Source of the DNA: Hymenobacter sp. BT559
GTDB taxonomy: Bacteria > Bacteroidota > Bacteroidia > Cytophagales > Hymenobacteraceae
NCBI RefSeq assembly: GCF_017571525.1
Contig: NZ_JAGETY010000014.1
Coordinates: 1-64,000, forward strand
Direction of reading: 5' to 3'
Length of the DNA stretch: 64,000 bases
Numbering within the stretch: the stretch's first letter is position 1; every line of letters starts with the position of its first letter. The position numbers were made by a program, and so were the translations under genes. Below are positions 1,392-63,243 of this stretch, piece after piece. The notes under the pieces were generated by a model, which was not told the origin of the DNA, made no database searches, and saw only the letters and a program-made list of their open reading frames with translations.

Positions 1392-1593
1392 AGTGATTGG
1401 AGGGGAAAAGGGAAAGTTGTGAGGCATTGATTACGAATGATTTAGCTAAAAGTTGAGCTGCTGTGTAAGCGCCTGATTTATAGCCAGCCGCACGGCGCTG
1501 CTGTTCAGGCCAAATTTTTTTTTAACCCTCATTAAACCTCCACAAAGCTGCACGCTCTCAGCTAGTACACCTTACCTCTTCCCATCCTGCCCT

Positions 1594-2445
1594 ATGCGCT
1601 ACACTACTTCTCTCCGCATGCTGGCCCTGGCTGCCCTCACCAGCGGCCTGCTGCTCACCACTAGCTGCCACCGCGCCGACGTGGTGGCCGACGACATAAC
1701 CTCGGCCGAAGACCATGGCCAGGGCGACGAAGAAAATGCCACCTCTGCCGACCTGGTAGAAGCCGCTGCCCCGCAAGATGCCACGGCCTCGGGCAGCGCC
1801 AGCATTGCCGGCCCCGCCGAGCTGAAAGCCCTGGCCTCGGGCTGCCTCACCCGCACCTATGACGCGGCCACGCGCACGCTCACCCTCGATTTTGGCCCCA
1901 CCAACTGCCTGTGCGCCGATGGCCGCTACCGCCGGGGCCAAATCACGGCCGTGTTTAGCGGTCCCTACCGCCAGGCCGGCGCGGTGGTCACCATCAACCG
2001 CACCAACTACTTCGTGAACGACAACCAGCACCTGGGCACCCGCATTATCACTAATCTGGGCAGTGGCTCGTTTGACCTGAGCGTGCAGAATGCCAGCATC
2101 ATTTTCGCCAATAACGGGGGCAGCACCTCGTGGTCGTCGCAGCGCCGCTACACCCGCACGGCGGGCTTTGGCACTGCTACCATCCTCGACGATGCCTACA
2201 GCATCACGGGCTCGCTCACGGGCACCAACCGCCGGGGTGTAACGTACACGGCCGCCATCCAGCAGCCGCTCATCAAGAAGTTTGCCCCCGGTTGCGCCCG
2301 GCATTTTGTAGCCGGCACCATCGAGCTGACCAATTCTAATGCCAAGGCCATGCTCATTAATTACGACCCTAGCGGCACCGCCGCCTGCGACAACATCGCC
2401 ACGGTCACGGTGAATGGCCACACCCGCACTATCTACCTGAAGTAG
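1594..2445 (+). CDS. Hypothetical lipoprotein, Cys-containing beta-rich
   Basis: This 283-aa protein has a signal peptide with Cys25 as lipid attachment site (LLTTSC), then an acidic Asp/Glu/Ala linker to about residue 70. The rest is predicted beta-rich (LTLDFGPTNCLCADGRYRRG, SFDLSVQNASI, TVTVNGHTRTIYLK) with several Cys residues, including a C-L-C motif, that could form disulfides in the periplasm. I recognise the overall layout as a family of conserved Bacteroidota lipoproteins but cannot name a function. It is transcribed alone, convergent with ispD. Its end is followed by a 53-bp inverted-repeat arm and a hairpin terminator. Confidence 0.82.
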   Translation: MRYTTSLRMLALAALTSGLLLTTSCHRADVVADDITSAEDHGQGDEENATSADLVEAAAPQDATASGSASIAGPAELKALASGCLTRTYDAATRTLTLDFGPTNCLCADGRYRRGQITAVFSGPYRQAGAVVTINRTNYFVNDNQHLGTRIITNLGSGSFDLSVQNASIIFANNGGSTSWSSQRRYTRTAGFGTATILDDAYSITGSLTGTNRRGVTYTAAIQQPLIKKFAPGCARHFVAGTIELTNSNAKAMLINYDPSGTAACDNIATVTVNGHTRTIYLK

Positions 2446-2450
2446 TGTCT

Positions 2451-2638
2451 GAACCACGGATTCGGACGGATTTATCGGAGTAATTGGATTTCGTAGCCGA
2501 TTAAAAAGTAAAAAGGCCACCCGGTTGGGTGGCCTTTCTTTTGTGGGTGCTGCCTCAAAGCTGGGCTAGCAAAACTGCCGTTAGCTAATCGGCTACAAAA
2601 TCCGATTACTCCGATAAATCCGTCCGAATCCGTGGTTC
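2451..2638. repeat. 53-bp inverted repeat, family E, overlapping the ispD 3' end
   Basis: Arm 2451-2503 is the reverse complement of arm 2586-2638 with two mismatches. The arms carry the words CCACGGATTCGGACGG and TTTATCGGAGTAAT. An 82-bp centre contains a separate terminator hairpin. The right arm encodes the last ten residues and stop codon of ispD. Similar CACGGATT-type words are dispersed in many bacterial genomes, so I read this as a mobile or REP-like palindromic element. Confidence 0.85.
2512..2537. terminator. Bidirectional terminator between lipoprotein gene and ispD
   Basis: Perfect 11-bp stem (2512-2522 with 2527-2537) with a GGTT loop, followed by T-rich sequence on the plus strand and preceded by an A-rich stretch that gives a T tract on the minus strand. 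It lies between two convergent genes. Confidence 0.85.
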
Positions 2639-3349
2639 AGATAGCAACGCCTCGGCCAGCAGGAGGTCTTCGGGCGTCGTGATTTTCAGGTTGCGGTAGT
2701 CGCCCTCCACCAGCTGCACCGGGTGCAGGTCATCGACCACGCTGGCATCGTCGGTGAAGGTGGGCAGCTCGGGCAGGCGATAGGCGCGGCGCAATAGCGC
2801 CAGGTCGAAGGTTTGGGGCGTTTGCATGAGGCGCAGGCGGCGGCGGTCGAGCGGCGATGAGCCGGCCGCCCCCAGCATCCGCACCGAGTCTTTGGGCGGC
2901 ACCGCCACGGCCGCGGCGCCGTGGGCGGCGGCCGCCACGTAGGCCGCCTCAATGACCGAAGCCGTGATGAGCGGGCGCACGCCATCGTGCACGGCCACCA
3001 GCGTGCCGGCTGGCGCCTCGGCGGGCAGCGCCGCTAGCCCTGCCTTCACCGATGCCCAGCGCGTAGCGCCGCCCACCACCAACGTATGGGGCAGGGTAAT
3101 CGCATACTCGGCACACAGCTGCCGCCAAAAATCGAGTTGGTCGGCTGGCAGCACTACCACCGTTTTCGTCACCCCTAGCGCCGGCTCGGCAAAGCGCCGC
3201 AGTGTGTGCAGCAGCACCGGCTCGCCGCGCAGCAGCAAGAACTGCTTGGGCCGGTCAGCGCCCATGCGCAGCCCGCTGCCGCCGGCCACCAGGATGGCGT
3301 AGCGCGGCGCAGCCGGGCTAGCTGAGGAAGAACTAAAAACGTCTGTCAT
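2606..3349 (-). CDS. ispD: 2-C-methyl-D-erythritol 4-phosphate cytidylyltransferase
   Basis: The 247-aa product matches IspD, which makes CDP-methylerythritol from MEP and CTP in the non-mevalonate isoprenoid pathway in the cytoplasm. The nucleotide-binding signature is at residues 19-36 (ILVAGGSGLRMG then KQF), with VAVHDGVRPL near the middle and QTPQTFDL further on. The length is normal for the family. The only suitable Met is at 3349; that ATG and the next three codons lie in the arm of one inverted repeat (3337-3470), while the last ten codons and stop lie in another (2451-2638). The downstream pcrB homologue at 20587 also depends on isoprenoid supply but is not linked. Confidence 0.96.
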   Translation of the reverse strand: MTDVFSSSSASPAAPRYAILVAGGSGLRMGADRPKQFLLLRGEPVLLHTLRRFAEPALGVTKTVVVLPADQLDFWRQLCAEYAITLPHTLVVGGATRWASVKAGLAALPAEAPAGTLVAVHDGVRPLITASVIEAAYVAAAAHGAAAVAVPPKDSVRMLGAAGSSPLDRRRLRLMQTPQTFDLALLRRAYRLPELPTFTDDASVVDDLHPVQLVEGDYRNLKITTPEDLLLAEALLSEPRIRTDLSE

Positions 3350-3470
3350 TGCGGGCGGAACGAAGTGGAGCGCGGCAATCTTTCCTTTCCGTTGAGCTAG
3401 GGGGTACTACCACAACGCAAAGGAAGGATTGCCGCGCTCCACTTCGTTGCGCTCGCAATGACAGACGTTT
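3337..3470. repeat. Long inverted repeat, family A copy 1 (CATTGCGAGC type)
   Basis: Arm 3337-3388 pairs with 3419-3470 with only a few mismatches over 52 bp, around a loop of about 30 bp. Characteristic words are GTCATTGCGAGCGCAACGAA and GAGCGCGGCAATC. It lies between ispD and queA, and its left arm holds the ispD start codon. Related copies occur at 58621-58740 and 63140-63243. Confidence 0.88.
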
Positions 3471-3492
3471 TACAACGCTGACTAGCCGCAGC

Positions 3493-4548
3493 TTACAGAA
3501 TCAGCATCGCGTCGCCGAAGGCGAAGAAACGGTACTTCTCCTTGATGGCTTCCTGGTAAGCTTCCATCAGCAGCTTGTAGCCGGCGAAGGCCGAGGCCAT
3601 CATCACCAGCGTGCTTTCGGGCAGGTGGAAGTTGGTAAGCAGCGAGTTAGCGATTTTAAACTCGTAGGGCGGGTAGATGAATTTATCGTTCCAGCCCTGC
3701 GTCACCTTGATGCGGCTGCTGGCCGACACTGAAGCGTCGAGCGCCCGCATGGTGGTAGTGCCGATGGCGCACACCTGGTGCTTGGTATCAATCGACTTGT
3801 TGACTACCTGCACGGCGTCGGGGCCTACGAAGAACTGCTCCGAGTCCATCTTGTGCTTGGTGAGGTCCTCTACGTCCACGTTGCGGTAGGTGCCCAGCCC
3901 TACGTGCAGGGTAATGAAGGCTTTCTCGATGCCCTTGATTTCCATGCGCTTGAGCACCTCGCGCGAGAAGTGCAGGCCGGCGCTGGGGGCCGCCACGGCG
4001 CCGATGTGCTCGGCAAAGATGGTCTGGTAGCGCTCCTTGTCAGCCGGCTCGGTTTCGCGCTTCAGCACGTCTTTGGGCACGGGCGTTTCGCCCAGCTCAT
4101 ACAACGCCTTGCGGAACTCCTCGTCGGTGCCATCAAACAAAAACTTGATGGTGCGGCCGCGCGAGGTCGTGTTGTCGATAACCTCGGCCACGATGTCCGA
4201 CTCGCCGAAATACAGCTTGTTGCCTACCCGGATTTTGCGGGCCGGGTCTACCAGCACGTCCCAGAGGCGGCCTTCTTTATTGAGCTCGCGCAGCAAGAAT
4301 ACTTCAATCTGGGCGCCGGTGCGCTCTTTTTGCCCATACATGCGGGCCGGAAACACTTTGGTATCGTTGAACACGAACACGTCGCCCTCCACGAAGTAGT
4401 CCAGAATATCTTTGAACATCTTGTGTTCAATCTGGCCGGTGGCGCGGTTTACCACCATCAGGCGCGATTCGTCGCGGTGGCGGGCAGGGTGACTGGCAAT
4501 CAGCTCTTCGGGGAGTTCAAACTTGAACTCATGCAGTTTCATCGCCAT
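3493..4548 (-). CDS. queA: S-adenosylmethionine:tRNA ribosyltransferase-isomerase
   Basis: QueA transfers and isomerises the ribosyl group of SAM onto 7-aminomethyl-deazaguanine in tRNA to give epoxyqueuosine, the penultimate queuosine step. The 351-aa protein opens with [20 protein letters not shown] and contains the family motifs [28 protein letters not shown] and [10 protein letters not shown]. Its C-terminus [19 protein letters not shown] is also typical. Length is normal. Start at 4548 gives MAMKLHEF; the second ATG two codons later is equally possible. A TACCTTTG box lies 42 bp upstream. Confidence 0.97.
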
Positions 4549-4589
4549 GATGGGCAGTACTAGGGGGAAGTTACCGAAAATTCGGGGGG

Positions 4590-4597
4590 CAAAGGTA
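4590..4597 (-). promoter_or_regulatory. Putative Bacteroidota -7 box for queA
   Basis: TACCTTTG on the minus strand matches the TAnnTTTG -7 consensus used by the Bacteroidota primary sigma factor. It lies 42 bp upstream of the queA start. I do not see a convincing TTTG -33 element at the usual spacing. Confidence 0.5.
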
Positions 4598-4722
4598 CGC
4601 TTTTCTCGCTAGATTGTTGATGAATTGTAAGTTGAGTTTAAGAGCGCTAATAATAGCGGGCGTTTAGTAGGTTTGTCACGGCTCCGCTTGCCCGGCGAGC
4701 GCTGATTTCATTCAATGCCGCT

Positions 4723-25145: not shown

Positions 25146-25244
25146 TAATGGTTAATTGATAAATGGTCAACGATTAATAGCCCATGAATGGCAAGGGCTA
25201 AAGGGGATTCCATCAACCATTGACCATTAATCAATTAACCATTA
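25146..25244. repeat. AT-rich inverted repeat, family F copy
   Basis: TAATGGTTAATTGATAAATG with following bases (25146-25176) is the near-perfect reverse complement of 25214-25244. The loop of about 37 bp is less AT-rich. It fills the gap between the flippase-like gene and rfaE2, and an in-frame ATG upstream of rfaE2 lies in it. A similar single unit is at 16237-16270. Confidence 0.8.
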
Positions 25245-27938: not shown

Positions 27939-29993
27939 TTGCCTGATTTGACTTACCCCGCCGCCCGCCGCGACCCGCGGCCCGATACCTACTTTGGCAC
28001 CGAGGTGCCCGACCCCTACCGCTGGCTCGAAGACCCCGATGCGCCCGAAACCCAGGCCTGGGTGCGGGCCGAAAACGAGGTGACGTTTGGCTACCTCGCC
28101 CAGATTCCATTTCGCGACCAGCTGCGCGAGCGCCTTACCCAGCTCTGGAACTACGAGCGCTACGGGGTGCCTAGCCAGGAGGGTGTTTTATTGATTTTCA
28201 GTAAGAACGACGGCCTGCAAAACCAGGCTGTCGTATACGCCCTGCCGGTGGGCCAGCCCCTCGAAAGCGCCGAGGTACTGCTCGACCCCAACCAGTTTTC
28301 GGAAGACGGGACCACGGCGCTCATGGGCCTGCACTTCAGCCCCGACCACCGCCACCTAGCTTACACCACCAGCGGGGGCGGCTCCGACTGGCAGCAGATT
28401 CACTTGCTTGAGTTGGCTAGCCGCCAGCCCCTGACCGAGGTGCTCGACTGGGTAAAAGTATCGGACGTGGCCTGGGCCGGCGCGGGGTTCTACTACAGTG
28501 CCTACGATGCGCCCCGACCGGGTGAAGCGGCCCTAGCCGGCAAAAACGAGTTTCACAAGGTGTACTACCACCGCCTTGGCACGCCGCAAACCCAGGATGA
28601 GCTGGTGTATGAAAACCCGGATAGGGCGCTGGGTTTCCGCATTGCCAGCACCACCGAGGATGAGCGATGGCTCTGCCTGAGCCTCACCGATGGGCTAGCC
28701 GATGGCAACGGACTACTAGTGCGCAACTTGCACGACCCTAGCCAGGCCGGGCAATGGATTACCGTTCAGCCGAGCTACGAATTTGATACGAGTGTAATCG
28801 GCAACGTGGGCGATGAGCTGCTGCTTTATACCAACGACCACGCGCCTAACTACCGCGTGGTGCGCGTGCACCCTGGCCGGCCCACCGAGTGGCACGATGT
28901 CATTCCCGAAACCACCGAAAAGCTTGAGAGCATCAGCCAGGCGGCGGGCTGCCTGCTGGCCATGTATCTGCAAGATGCCAGCTCGCAGGTGAAGGTGTAC
29001 TCGGAAGCCGGTGAGTTTCGGCACGAGGTGGCCTTGCCGGCCATTGGCACGGCCGGCGGCTTTGGCGGGCGCCGCACCGATGCGGTGTTATACTATGCCT
29101 TCACATCGTTTACCTATCCCACTACCATCTACTGCTACGACCCGGTAGCCAACGCGAGCACCGTATTTAAGGCGCCGACGGTGGATGTGCGGCCGGATGA
29201 GTACGAAACCCGGCAGGTTTTTTACGAGAGCAAGGACGGCACCCGCGTGCCGATGTTCATCACCCATAAAAAGGGGCTAGCGCTGGATGGGCAAAACCCC
29301 ACCTACCTCTACGCCTACGGCGGCTTCAACGTGAGTTTGACGCCAGGCTTTTCGGTAGCGCGGCTCTTGTGGCTGGAGCGTGGCGGGGTGCTGGCTATTC
29401 CGAACCTGCGCGGTGGTGGCGAATACGGCGAAGCCTGGCACCAAGCCGGCATGACGCCCCGCAAGCAAAATGTATTCGACGACTTCATCGTCGCTGCCGA
29501 AACGCTGTTTGCCCAAGGCTACACCAGCCCCGAAAAGCTAGCCATCGCGGGCGGCTCAAACGGCGGCCTGCTCGTGGGCGCCATCATGACGCAGCGGCCC
29601 GACCTGTGCCGCGTGGCCCTGCCGGCCGTGGGTGTCATGGACATGCTTAAGTACCAGAAATTTACCATCGGCTGGAACTGGGCGCCCGAGTACGGCACCT
29701 CCGACGACGAGGCGCAGTTTCGTAACCTGCTCAGCTTCTCGCCCTTGCACAACCTGCGGCCTGGCACTGCCTACCCAGCCACGCTCATCACCACCGCCGA
29801 CCACGACGACCGCGTGGTGCCTGCCCACTCCTTCAAGTTTGCCGCCGAGCTACAAGTGTGCCAGGCTGGCCCTAGCCCCGTGCTCATCCGCATCGACGTG
29901 AACGCCGGCCACGGCGCCGGCAAAAGCACCCAGCTGCAAATAGCCGAGTGGGCCGACGTGTGGAGCTTCACGCTGTTTTCAATGGGAGAATGA
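27939..29993 (+). CDS. Prolyl oligopeptidase (S9A family)
   Basis: A 684-aa serine peptidase with an N-terminal propeller (DPYRWLEDPDAPETQAW onward) and a C-terminal alpha/beta-hydrolase domain. The triad is Ser in GGSNGGLL (about 539), Asp in the DHDDRV region (about 621-624), and His in NAGHGAG (about 657). It cleaves short proline-containing peptides. There is no signal peptide, so it should be cytoplasmic. The reading frame opens right after the lipoprotein stop and has no ATG for about 120 codons, so TTG at 27939 (or 27948) must serve as start. Its last three codons and stop form part of a repeat arm. Confidence 0.93.
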   Translation: MPDLTYPAARRDPRPDTYFGTEVPDPYRWLEDPDAPETQAWVRAENEVTFGYLAQIPFRDQLRERLTQLWNYERYGVPSQEGVLLIFSKNDGLQNQAVVYALPVGQPLESAEVLLDPNQFSEDGTTALMGLHFSPDHRHLAYTTSGGGSDWQQIHLLELASRQPLTEVLDWVKVSDVAWAGAGFYYSAYDAPRPGEAALAGKNEFHKVYYHRLGTPQTQDELVYENPDRALGFRIASTTEDERWLCLSLTDGLADGNGLLVRNLHDPSQAGQWITVQPSYEFDTSVIGNVGDELLLYTNDHAPNYRVVRVHPGRPTEWHDVIPETTEKLESISQAAGCLLAMYLQDASSQVKVYSEAGEFRHEVALPAIGTAGGFGGRRTDAVLYYAFTSFTYPTTIYCYDPVANASTVFKAPTVDVRPDEYETRQVFYESKDGTRVPMFITHKKGLALDGQNPTYLYAYGGFNVSLTPGFSVARLLWLERGGVLAIPNLRGGGEYGEAWHQAGMTPRKQNVFDDFIVAAETLFAQGYTSPEKLAIAGGSNGGLLVGAIMTQRPDLCRVALPAVGVMDMLKYQKFTIGWNWAPEYGTSDDEAQFRNLLSFSPLHNLRPGTAYPATLITTADHDDRVVPAHSFKFAAELQVCQAGPSPVLIRIDVNAGHGAGKSTQLQIAEWADVWSFTLFSMGE

Positions 29994-30086
29994 GTGAATA
30001 GCGTCGAATATCATTCAGCCATTCACTCATTCTCCCATTCACTCATTCTCCCATTCACTCATTCTCCCATTCACTCATTCTCCCAT
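29981..30086. repeat. 16-bp tandem repeat with complementary arm (family G)
   Basis: Four copies of CATTCACTCATTCTCC run from 30020 to 30083, preceded by a partial CATTCAGC. An 18-bp stretch at 29981-29998, holding the end of the oligopeptidase gene, is complementary to them, so a hairpin can form with different copies. Each 16-mer is itself two related 8-mers. Copy number is likely variable. Confidence 0.88.
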
Positions 30087-30091
30087 TGGCG

Positions 30092-30394
30092 CTACTCCAC
30101 CACCTCCAGCACGGTACGGAAAGAGTGGTATTTGCCCGGAAACTTCTTGTCCATTTCCTGCCGCAGGGCGGGCGCAAAGTGCTGCTGATAAGCCTCTAGC
30201 TGCTCAAGGCTGATGCTGAAATACTGCGCGGCGTAGGTCACGCCGTCGTCTTCCTCGTTGAGCAGACGCAGCAGCTGGCTGCGGATAAAGCAACCTGTGC
30301 CTACTACTTCGGCCATGTGGTGGTCGCGCATGTAGGCTACCCACTCATCGGCGATGCTGGGGTCGAGGCTGGTGGTTACGTTGTAAAGAATCAT
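30092..30394 (-). CDS. DUF4286 family protein
   Basis: A 100-aa cytoplasmic protein matching DUF4286: MILYNVTTSLDPSIADEWVA at the start, MAEVVGTGCF and ISLEQLEAYQQHFAPALRQE. These are small alpha/beta proteins of unknown function, often in Bacteroidota, with a ferredoxin-like fold expected. It is convergent with the oligopeptidase gene and separated from it by the tandem repeat. A nitronate monooxygenase gene lies upstream on the same strand. Confidence 0.88.
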   Translation of the reverse strand: MILYNVTTSLDPSIADEWVAYMRDHHMAEVVGTGCFIRSQLLRLLNEEDDGVTYAAQYFSISLEQLEAYQQHFAPALRQEMDKKFPGKYHSFRTVLEVVE

Positions 30395-44631: not shown

Positions 44632-44733
44632 AAAAACGTCCGCCATGCTGAGCTTGTCGAAGCATCTCTCCCGAACGGCACCCTAGCGGCGCGGGAGAGA
44701 TGCTTCGACAAGCTCAGCATGACGGACGTTTTT
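44632..44733. repeat. 42-bp inverted repeat, family B (CTGAGCTTGTCGAAGC type)
   Basis: Arm 44632-44673 is the reverse complement of 44692-44733 with one mismatch and a loop of 18 bp. The characteristic word is ATGCTGAGCTTGTCGAAGCA. It lies 19 bp after the esterase stop. Similar words occur as dispersed repeats in many bacterial genomes. Confidence 0.88.
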
Positions 44734-51402: not shown

Positions 51403-51419
51403 GTGGTTGTCGTTCTATC

Positions 51420-51555
51420 GGGGCGCCTCACCCCCTGGCCCCCTCTCCGAAAAAGAGAGGGGGAGCCACGGCGGCGTGCGAGTTCAGGTTTTAGCTAAAA
51501 AATTGTCAGGCCCCCTCTCCTTTTCGGAGAGGGGGCCAGGGGGTGAGGCGCCCCG
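51420..51555. repeat. 45-bp inverted repeat between pump and channel genes (family D)
   Basis: Arm 51420-51464 is the reverse complement of 51511-51555 with one mismatch. Each arm holds GGGGCGCCTCACCCCCTGGC and CCCTCTCC words. The 46-bp loop is less GC-rich. The outer ends lie 18 bp from the channel start and 8 bp from the pump stop. Confidence 0.9.
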
Positions 51556-51562
51556 CTAGGGT

Positions 51563-54794: not shown

Positions 54795-54899
54795 CGTCAT
54801 GCAGAGCGTAGCATCTCGCTTGCATCGTTGGGAGTAGTAGCGCGGACTTTTAGTCCGCGAGTTGGCTGACCTCACTCGCGGACTAAAAGTCCGCGCTAC
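54795..54899. repeat. Compound repeat between adaptor and pump genes (family C plus B-like)
   Basis: GTAGCGCGGACTTTTAGTCC with following CGCGAGT (54837-54862) pairs perfectly with 54874-54899. Each arm is itself a palindrome. Next to it, 54795-54818 carries GTCATGCAGAGCGTAGCATC, a different dispersed-repeat word. The right end lies 6 bp from the adaptor stop. Confidence 0.85.
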
Positions 54900-54905
54900 T
54901 TGCTG

Positions 54906-63139: not shown

Positions 63140-63243
63140 AAAACGCCTGTCATTGCAAGCCTGCGAATCAAGCACACGAGAACGAATCGGTTGGGTATCG
63201 TTCGGGTGCGATTGCTTCGCAAGCTCGCAATGACAGGCGTTTT
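63140..63243. repeat. Inverted repeat, family A copy 3
   Basis: AAAACGCCTGTCATTGC (63140-63156) pairs exactly with 63227-63243. The inner part carries a further GATTGCTTCGCAAGC palindrome. It lies between the DUF434 gene start and fumC. Confidence 0.85.

Follow-up and report, generated by a model that had tools for sequence, protein, structure and literature searches.

Do the two ends of ispD, an isoprenoid gene of Hymenobacter sp. BT559, come from inverted repeats, and by what route would repeats enter a reading frame? The window is the whole stretch of DNA analysed, 64,000 nt in length (contig NZ_JAGETY010000014.1, positions 1 to 64,000). The ispD gene lies at 2606–3349 on the minus strand and encodes 247 aa. 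Its tandem neighbour upstream is queA (3493–4548, minus strand, PF02547). The convergent gene on the other side (1594–2445, plus strand) has no Pfam match. The product is a genuine IspD by profile searches (PF01128, E 1e-48, residues 18–237; NF001186 above cut-off), with a conserved core of about residues 16–237.

The two repeats at ispD

Both ends of ispD lie in repeat arms, as an earlier note on this DNA had proposed, with borders slightly wider than it gave: 3336–3471 for 3337–3470 at the start and 2448–2641 for 2451–2638 at the end. The 5' repeat (family A) was delimited by an inverted-repeat search and consists of 65-nt arms at 3336–3400 and 3407–3471, 91% complementary, with a 6-nt loop. 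Its predicted RNA fold has −103.8 kcal/mol (z −17.5 against shuffles). The second arm adjoins the queA stop, and the hairpin probably also serves as the queA terminator. The first arm, whose outer end reads outward as ATGACAGACG, overlaps the ispD coding sequence by 14 nt (3336–3349, minus strand). These are ATG ACA GAC GTT TT, the codons of MTDV and two nucleotides of an F codon, so that the start codon and the first four codons are placed as claimed. The in-repeat ATG is the sole in-frame ATG, GTG or TTG between the upstream stop and the IspD core, in agreement with the statement that no other plausible start exists.

A wrongly annotated start, with IspD beginning downstream of the repeat at a non-canonical codon (CTG, ATT) and the 5' repeat reduced to mere upstream DNA, is very improbable. 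It accords with first residues that are unconserved and, in relatives, dispensable. Against it stand the uniqueness of the in-repeat ATG and the habit of most congeners, with or without repeats, of using an ATG 5–30 codons upstream of the core; the stop end of ispD is unambiguous regardless. The in-repeat ATG and the tail codons are taken as those probably translated.

The 3' repeat (family Z), delimited by the same kind of search, has arms at 2586–2641 and 2448–2503, 96% complementary, with an 82-nt spacer. The pair folds at −132.9 kcal/mol (z −19.9 against shuffles). The second arm begins 2 nt past the stop of the convergent gene. The other overlaps ispD by 36 nt: the frame misses the arm's own TGA and continues 12 codons into the arm, giving the tail SEPRIRTDLSE and TAA (2606–2641, minus strand). 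The last codons and the stop are therefore repeat-encoded as the earlier note had it, with eleven codons before the stop and not ten. Between the arms lies a bidirectional hairpin (2510–2539) with a G+C-rich stem followed by a T run on both strands, as expected of an intrinsic terminator. Terminator sites numbered two against 1.4 in shuffles, which is consensus evidence only, supported by persistence of the hairpin in relatives. Similar hairpins occupy most family Z spacers.

Solved IspD homologues align over about residues 15–240 only. As Pfam and structure coverage end there, what the repeats encode falls outside the enzyme or at its margin. The N-terminal extension is nearly absent in some congeners, whose IspD begins MSKNRYA or MPLPRFA. 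By sequence comparison the termini are dispensable, and the word essential, applied by the earlier note to the whole gene, is to be kept for the enzyme core.

Chance overlap of repeats with the ispD ends was ruled out by arm complementarity, fold z-scores, the placing of Z arms at stops (below) and membership of both repeats in dispersed families. Very probably, each border of ispD was settled by a different MITE/REP-like palindromic family, the two being unrelated, and both were absorbed into the reading frame. The A hairpin would fill the queA-ispD spacer, and its outward ATG would have become the start (MTDV). The Z arms would flank, on either side, the terminator that separates ispD from the convergent gene, with the frame entering one arm; the tail would be tolerated since the enzyme core spans residues 16–237. 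Translation signals at A and Z ends would ease repeated take-over of gene ends. Gene borders, with their dispensable protein ends that can take up such elements at little cost, would be the places where they accumulate or survive.

Families A and Z in the genome

Families A (AAAACGTCTGTCATTGCGAGC..., at the ispD start) and Z (TCTGAACCACGGATT..., at its end) are unrelated, and both are dispersed in the genome. The matches listed are at least 79 for A and at least 108 for Z, self and reverse-strand matches included. Genome-wide counts refer to 60 stretches chosen for their top-scoring matches; 40 of 53 and 40 of 91 candidates were scored in the searches, and the copy numbers of both families are lower bounds. 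They are probably underestimates, because draft contigs break within A or Z repeats (C2:31, C4:22, C9:22, C28:1 and the ends of C16 and C30). Each family has dozens of copies. Elements are about 90–160 bp (A) or 140–240 bp (Z) long, and arms are mostly 30–65 nt.

In size (a class of about 100–200 bp), long terminal inverted repeats and dispersed copies, A and Z agree with MITEs. They do not have the dimensions of REPs, which are short palindromes (about 14–40 nt) seldom overlapping coding sequences; A and Z measure about 90–240 nt and overlap gene ends frequently. An Rfam search of 1500–4700 gave zero family matches. The two repeats probably moved as elements, to judge from their sequences. 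The Z signature has 47 exact matches in the genome against 0–7 in sampled congeners, which suggests recent expansion of Z in the lineage of the studied genome. The exact A pattern was absent from all 197 other genomes sampled beyond the genus, and the exact Z pattern is rare outside the genus; exact patterns miss diverged copies in both cases.

Within an element the two arms are more alike than either is to other copies (Z, 0.90 vs 0.77; A, 0.88 vs 0.70). This feature bears on the possibility that arms form in situ: template switching around the palindrome of the terminator would copy gene-end sequence in reverse orientation across it, the repeats growing from local sequence rather than from incoming mobile elements. 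Partner arms do match better within a locus than across species or loci. The dozens of copies of A and Z arms elsewhere speak against local invention of the sequence, and as a full account template switching is unlikely. It may refresh arm pairing in place; it leaves the dispersed families unexplained.

The only RAYT-like gene found (L039:1399-2025) matches NF047646 with E 1e-20, below cut-off, and is the genome's sole match to PF01797 (Y1_Tnp), the transposase family searched for. It is bordered by GCGGACTTTCAGTCCGC hairpins, neither A nor Z. RAYT as mobiliser of A or Z is rejected for this gene, the flanks being those of a third hairpin family. The third family (GCGGACTTTTAGTCCGC) stands on both sides of the gene and also at 54836–54900 of the window. 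It encodes the last RAYT residues, NADFQSASE.

ispD in congeneric species

IspD was found in 119 of 120 congeneric genomes, and ispD loci from about 100 of them were compared. Over the congeners examined the core is conserved, and both termini are variable and track the local repeats. Identical termini in species without repeats, named in advance as the refuting observation, were looked for and not seen among the examined congeners. The proposal that separate palindromic elements rewrote the two termini is thus supported, the repeats being of unrelated dispersed families and the termini following whichever repeat is local.

Of the 17 closest species, counting the studied one, six carry an A hairpin that ends at the start of ispD, and their proteins begin MTD or MTN. 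Two others (L015, L018) hold the right-hand A stub only, yet ATGACA is kept. The remaining species have other ispD starts. Because L015 and L018 retain the ATG-bearing stub alone, the repeat-born start has outlived the hairpin. In the genomes G020 and G005 (L015 and L018 at ispD; L179 and L176 at mnmE), start-bearing repeat remnants are seen at both genes alike.

The eight species with A starts are not one clade (p-AU 6e-50; parsimony needs six changes; the sister species L017 and L019 do not agree). A single origin of the A-type start within a clade is rejected under the fitted tree, a result that spacer recombination between species could mimic. The distribution thus implies several gains or losses, or else exchange of spacers between lineages.

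Relatives without the A hairpin have a native terminator and a native start in the queA-ispD spacer. In several of them other paired repeats (heptad GTGAGTAA, GGTGAACT, GGGGACTTGG) surround the native terminator, and the right arm of such repeats encodes a linker, e.g., LLTYSPTHL. At the 3' end, tails follow the local Z subtype: NHGLHGF (L010), NHGLPGF (L013) and ADSNGFN (L014). Both arms in the ispD spacer change jointly around a persisting native terminator (0 of 5000 permutations, phylogeny uncorrected). Persistence of the native terminator between unrelated kinds of arm is as template switching would have it, and so is a 67-nt match between the arms in L014.

The stop register of Z described below, the similarity of arms within an element and their joint change make plain whole-element insertion insufficient. 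A fuller account is offered tentatively and is more likely wrong than right: Z would carry its own translation punctuation and lodge preferentially at stops in a fixed register, its arms renewed pairwise around the resident terminator by neither RAYT nor whole-element insertion, so rewriting conserved protein ends across the genus.

Other gene ends and known systems

Genes other than ispD are affected alike, among them mnmE, MPG (DNA-3-methyladenine glycosylase), trpS and mtaB. Genes in the 60 stretches were called from codon usage with a simple caller; start calls at genes other than ispD are predictions, and stop calls are unambiguous. Z ends have a TGA when read inward and a GTG when read outward; A ends have an outward ATG. 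Of 41 stops faced by a Z arm, 35 fall at −3 to +6 relative to the arm consensus, compared with none of 33 for A arms (Fisher p 3e-15; the range −3 to +6 was set after the distances were seen). Loci were selected for strong repeat matches, and the comparison of Z with A, sharing this selection, is the fairest control. Seventeen of the 41 stops lie exactly at +5. Eleven of these are the arm's own TGA (TCTGA) and six are TAG or TAA, some of which may be native stops abutting a shortened Z arm.

That Z arms dock so sharply at stops, and that most Z spacers hold a terminator-like hairpin, would also be expected if selection kept the elements as 3'-end or border devices, for terminator bracketing or for an action on translation termination like that of E. 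coli REPs lying 15 nt or less from a stop; coding overlap would then be a by-product. However, some relatives (L016) lack arms at the same sites and seem to manage, and arm sequence varies widely among species. Selection as the main explanation is considered rather improbable. It can be combined with settlement of the two families at the borders of ispD, which is still the preferred reading.

The outward GTG GTT CAG ACA of Z (VVQT) is the apparent start of mnmE and of genes for an M20-type amidohydrolase, a DNA glycosylase and a TIGR02757 protein. A gluQRS-like gene, MPG and a gene at L052 have no nearby ATG but that of an A arm. At mnmE an empty site is seen in three genomes (G102, G034 and G042), where the upstream stop and the mnmE start overlap as TGATG. 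The first of these is the closest relative by IspD, and its MnmE is 94% identical. In the studied genome a Z element comes after that stop, with the mnmE GTG in its far arm. The ATG was replaced by this GTG and not merely displaced. No target-site duplication was evident at this single empty site, the flanks of which have diverged. MPG starts in an A arm in five species, has a Z-type repeat and a TTG start in four, and looks native in others. At their stops, trpS and mtaB show a like mixture of repeat and native states.

Comparable cases are known in other bacteria. RPEs, as described by Ogata et al. (2000) and summarized in a review (PMC2229807), are in-frame intragenic insertions in conserved proteins. 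Compared by that description, A and Z are alike in being palindromic repeats read in frame within conserved proteins (14 and 36 nt at ispD); they differ in being terminal rather than internal and in supplying start and stop codons. Enterobacterial RU-1/ERIC sequences abolish the native stop and are fused to protein C-termini, the tail lying outside the conserved domain (PMC2759123) as at the ispD 3' end. Those are single cases, whereas A and Z display a recurrent fixed stop register, donate starts as well, and have arms paired on either side of a terminator. In Coxiella, several functional genes are stated to share 1–50 bp at their C-terminal ends with QMITE1 or QMITE2, and EnhC to carry a 33-residue QMITE tail (PMC5896051). 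The likeness is one of MITEs overlapping the C-terminal ends of functional genes. The differences are the other phylum, the bracketing of native terminators by Z, and start donation, of which the available text of that paper gives no description. E. coli REP/BIME inverted repeats lie within 15 nt of stops, and a translational role is proposed in PMC12306157 and a study cited there. They resemble Z in standing near stops but, on that account, are short and seldom overlap coding sequences; A and Z arms are longer, and the sole RAYT of the studied genome goes with another hairpin family.

Open-access papers yielded no description of the A core sequence, nothing specific on Hymenobacter repeats, and no report of a fixed stop register, start donation by both families or paired arms around terminators. 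Provisionally, novelty appears to lie in the stop-codon register and in the pairing of arms around native terminators; conversion of repeats into protein ends is of a kind already known. The argument for such conversion mostly relies on isolated examples. This genus offers numerous parallel instances at the starts and stops of housekeeping genes, and the orthologues are variously filled, empty or decayed. One can therefore count directly how repeat-derived protein ends are born, become fixed and erode. Automatic start annotation and terminal residues in such genomes are to be read with caution, as they may reflect repeats.

Further long inverted repeats are present in the window. One at 63140–63243 is A-like and lies between genes (CTGTCATTGCAAGC). 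Those at 25146–25244, 44632–44733 and 51415–51559 are intergenic and of other kinds. The inverted repeat at 29980–30088, built of tandem CACTCATTCTCCCATT units, lies over the 3' end of the coding sequence at 27948–29993 and extends to the end of the neighbouring gene at 30092.
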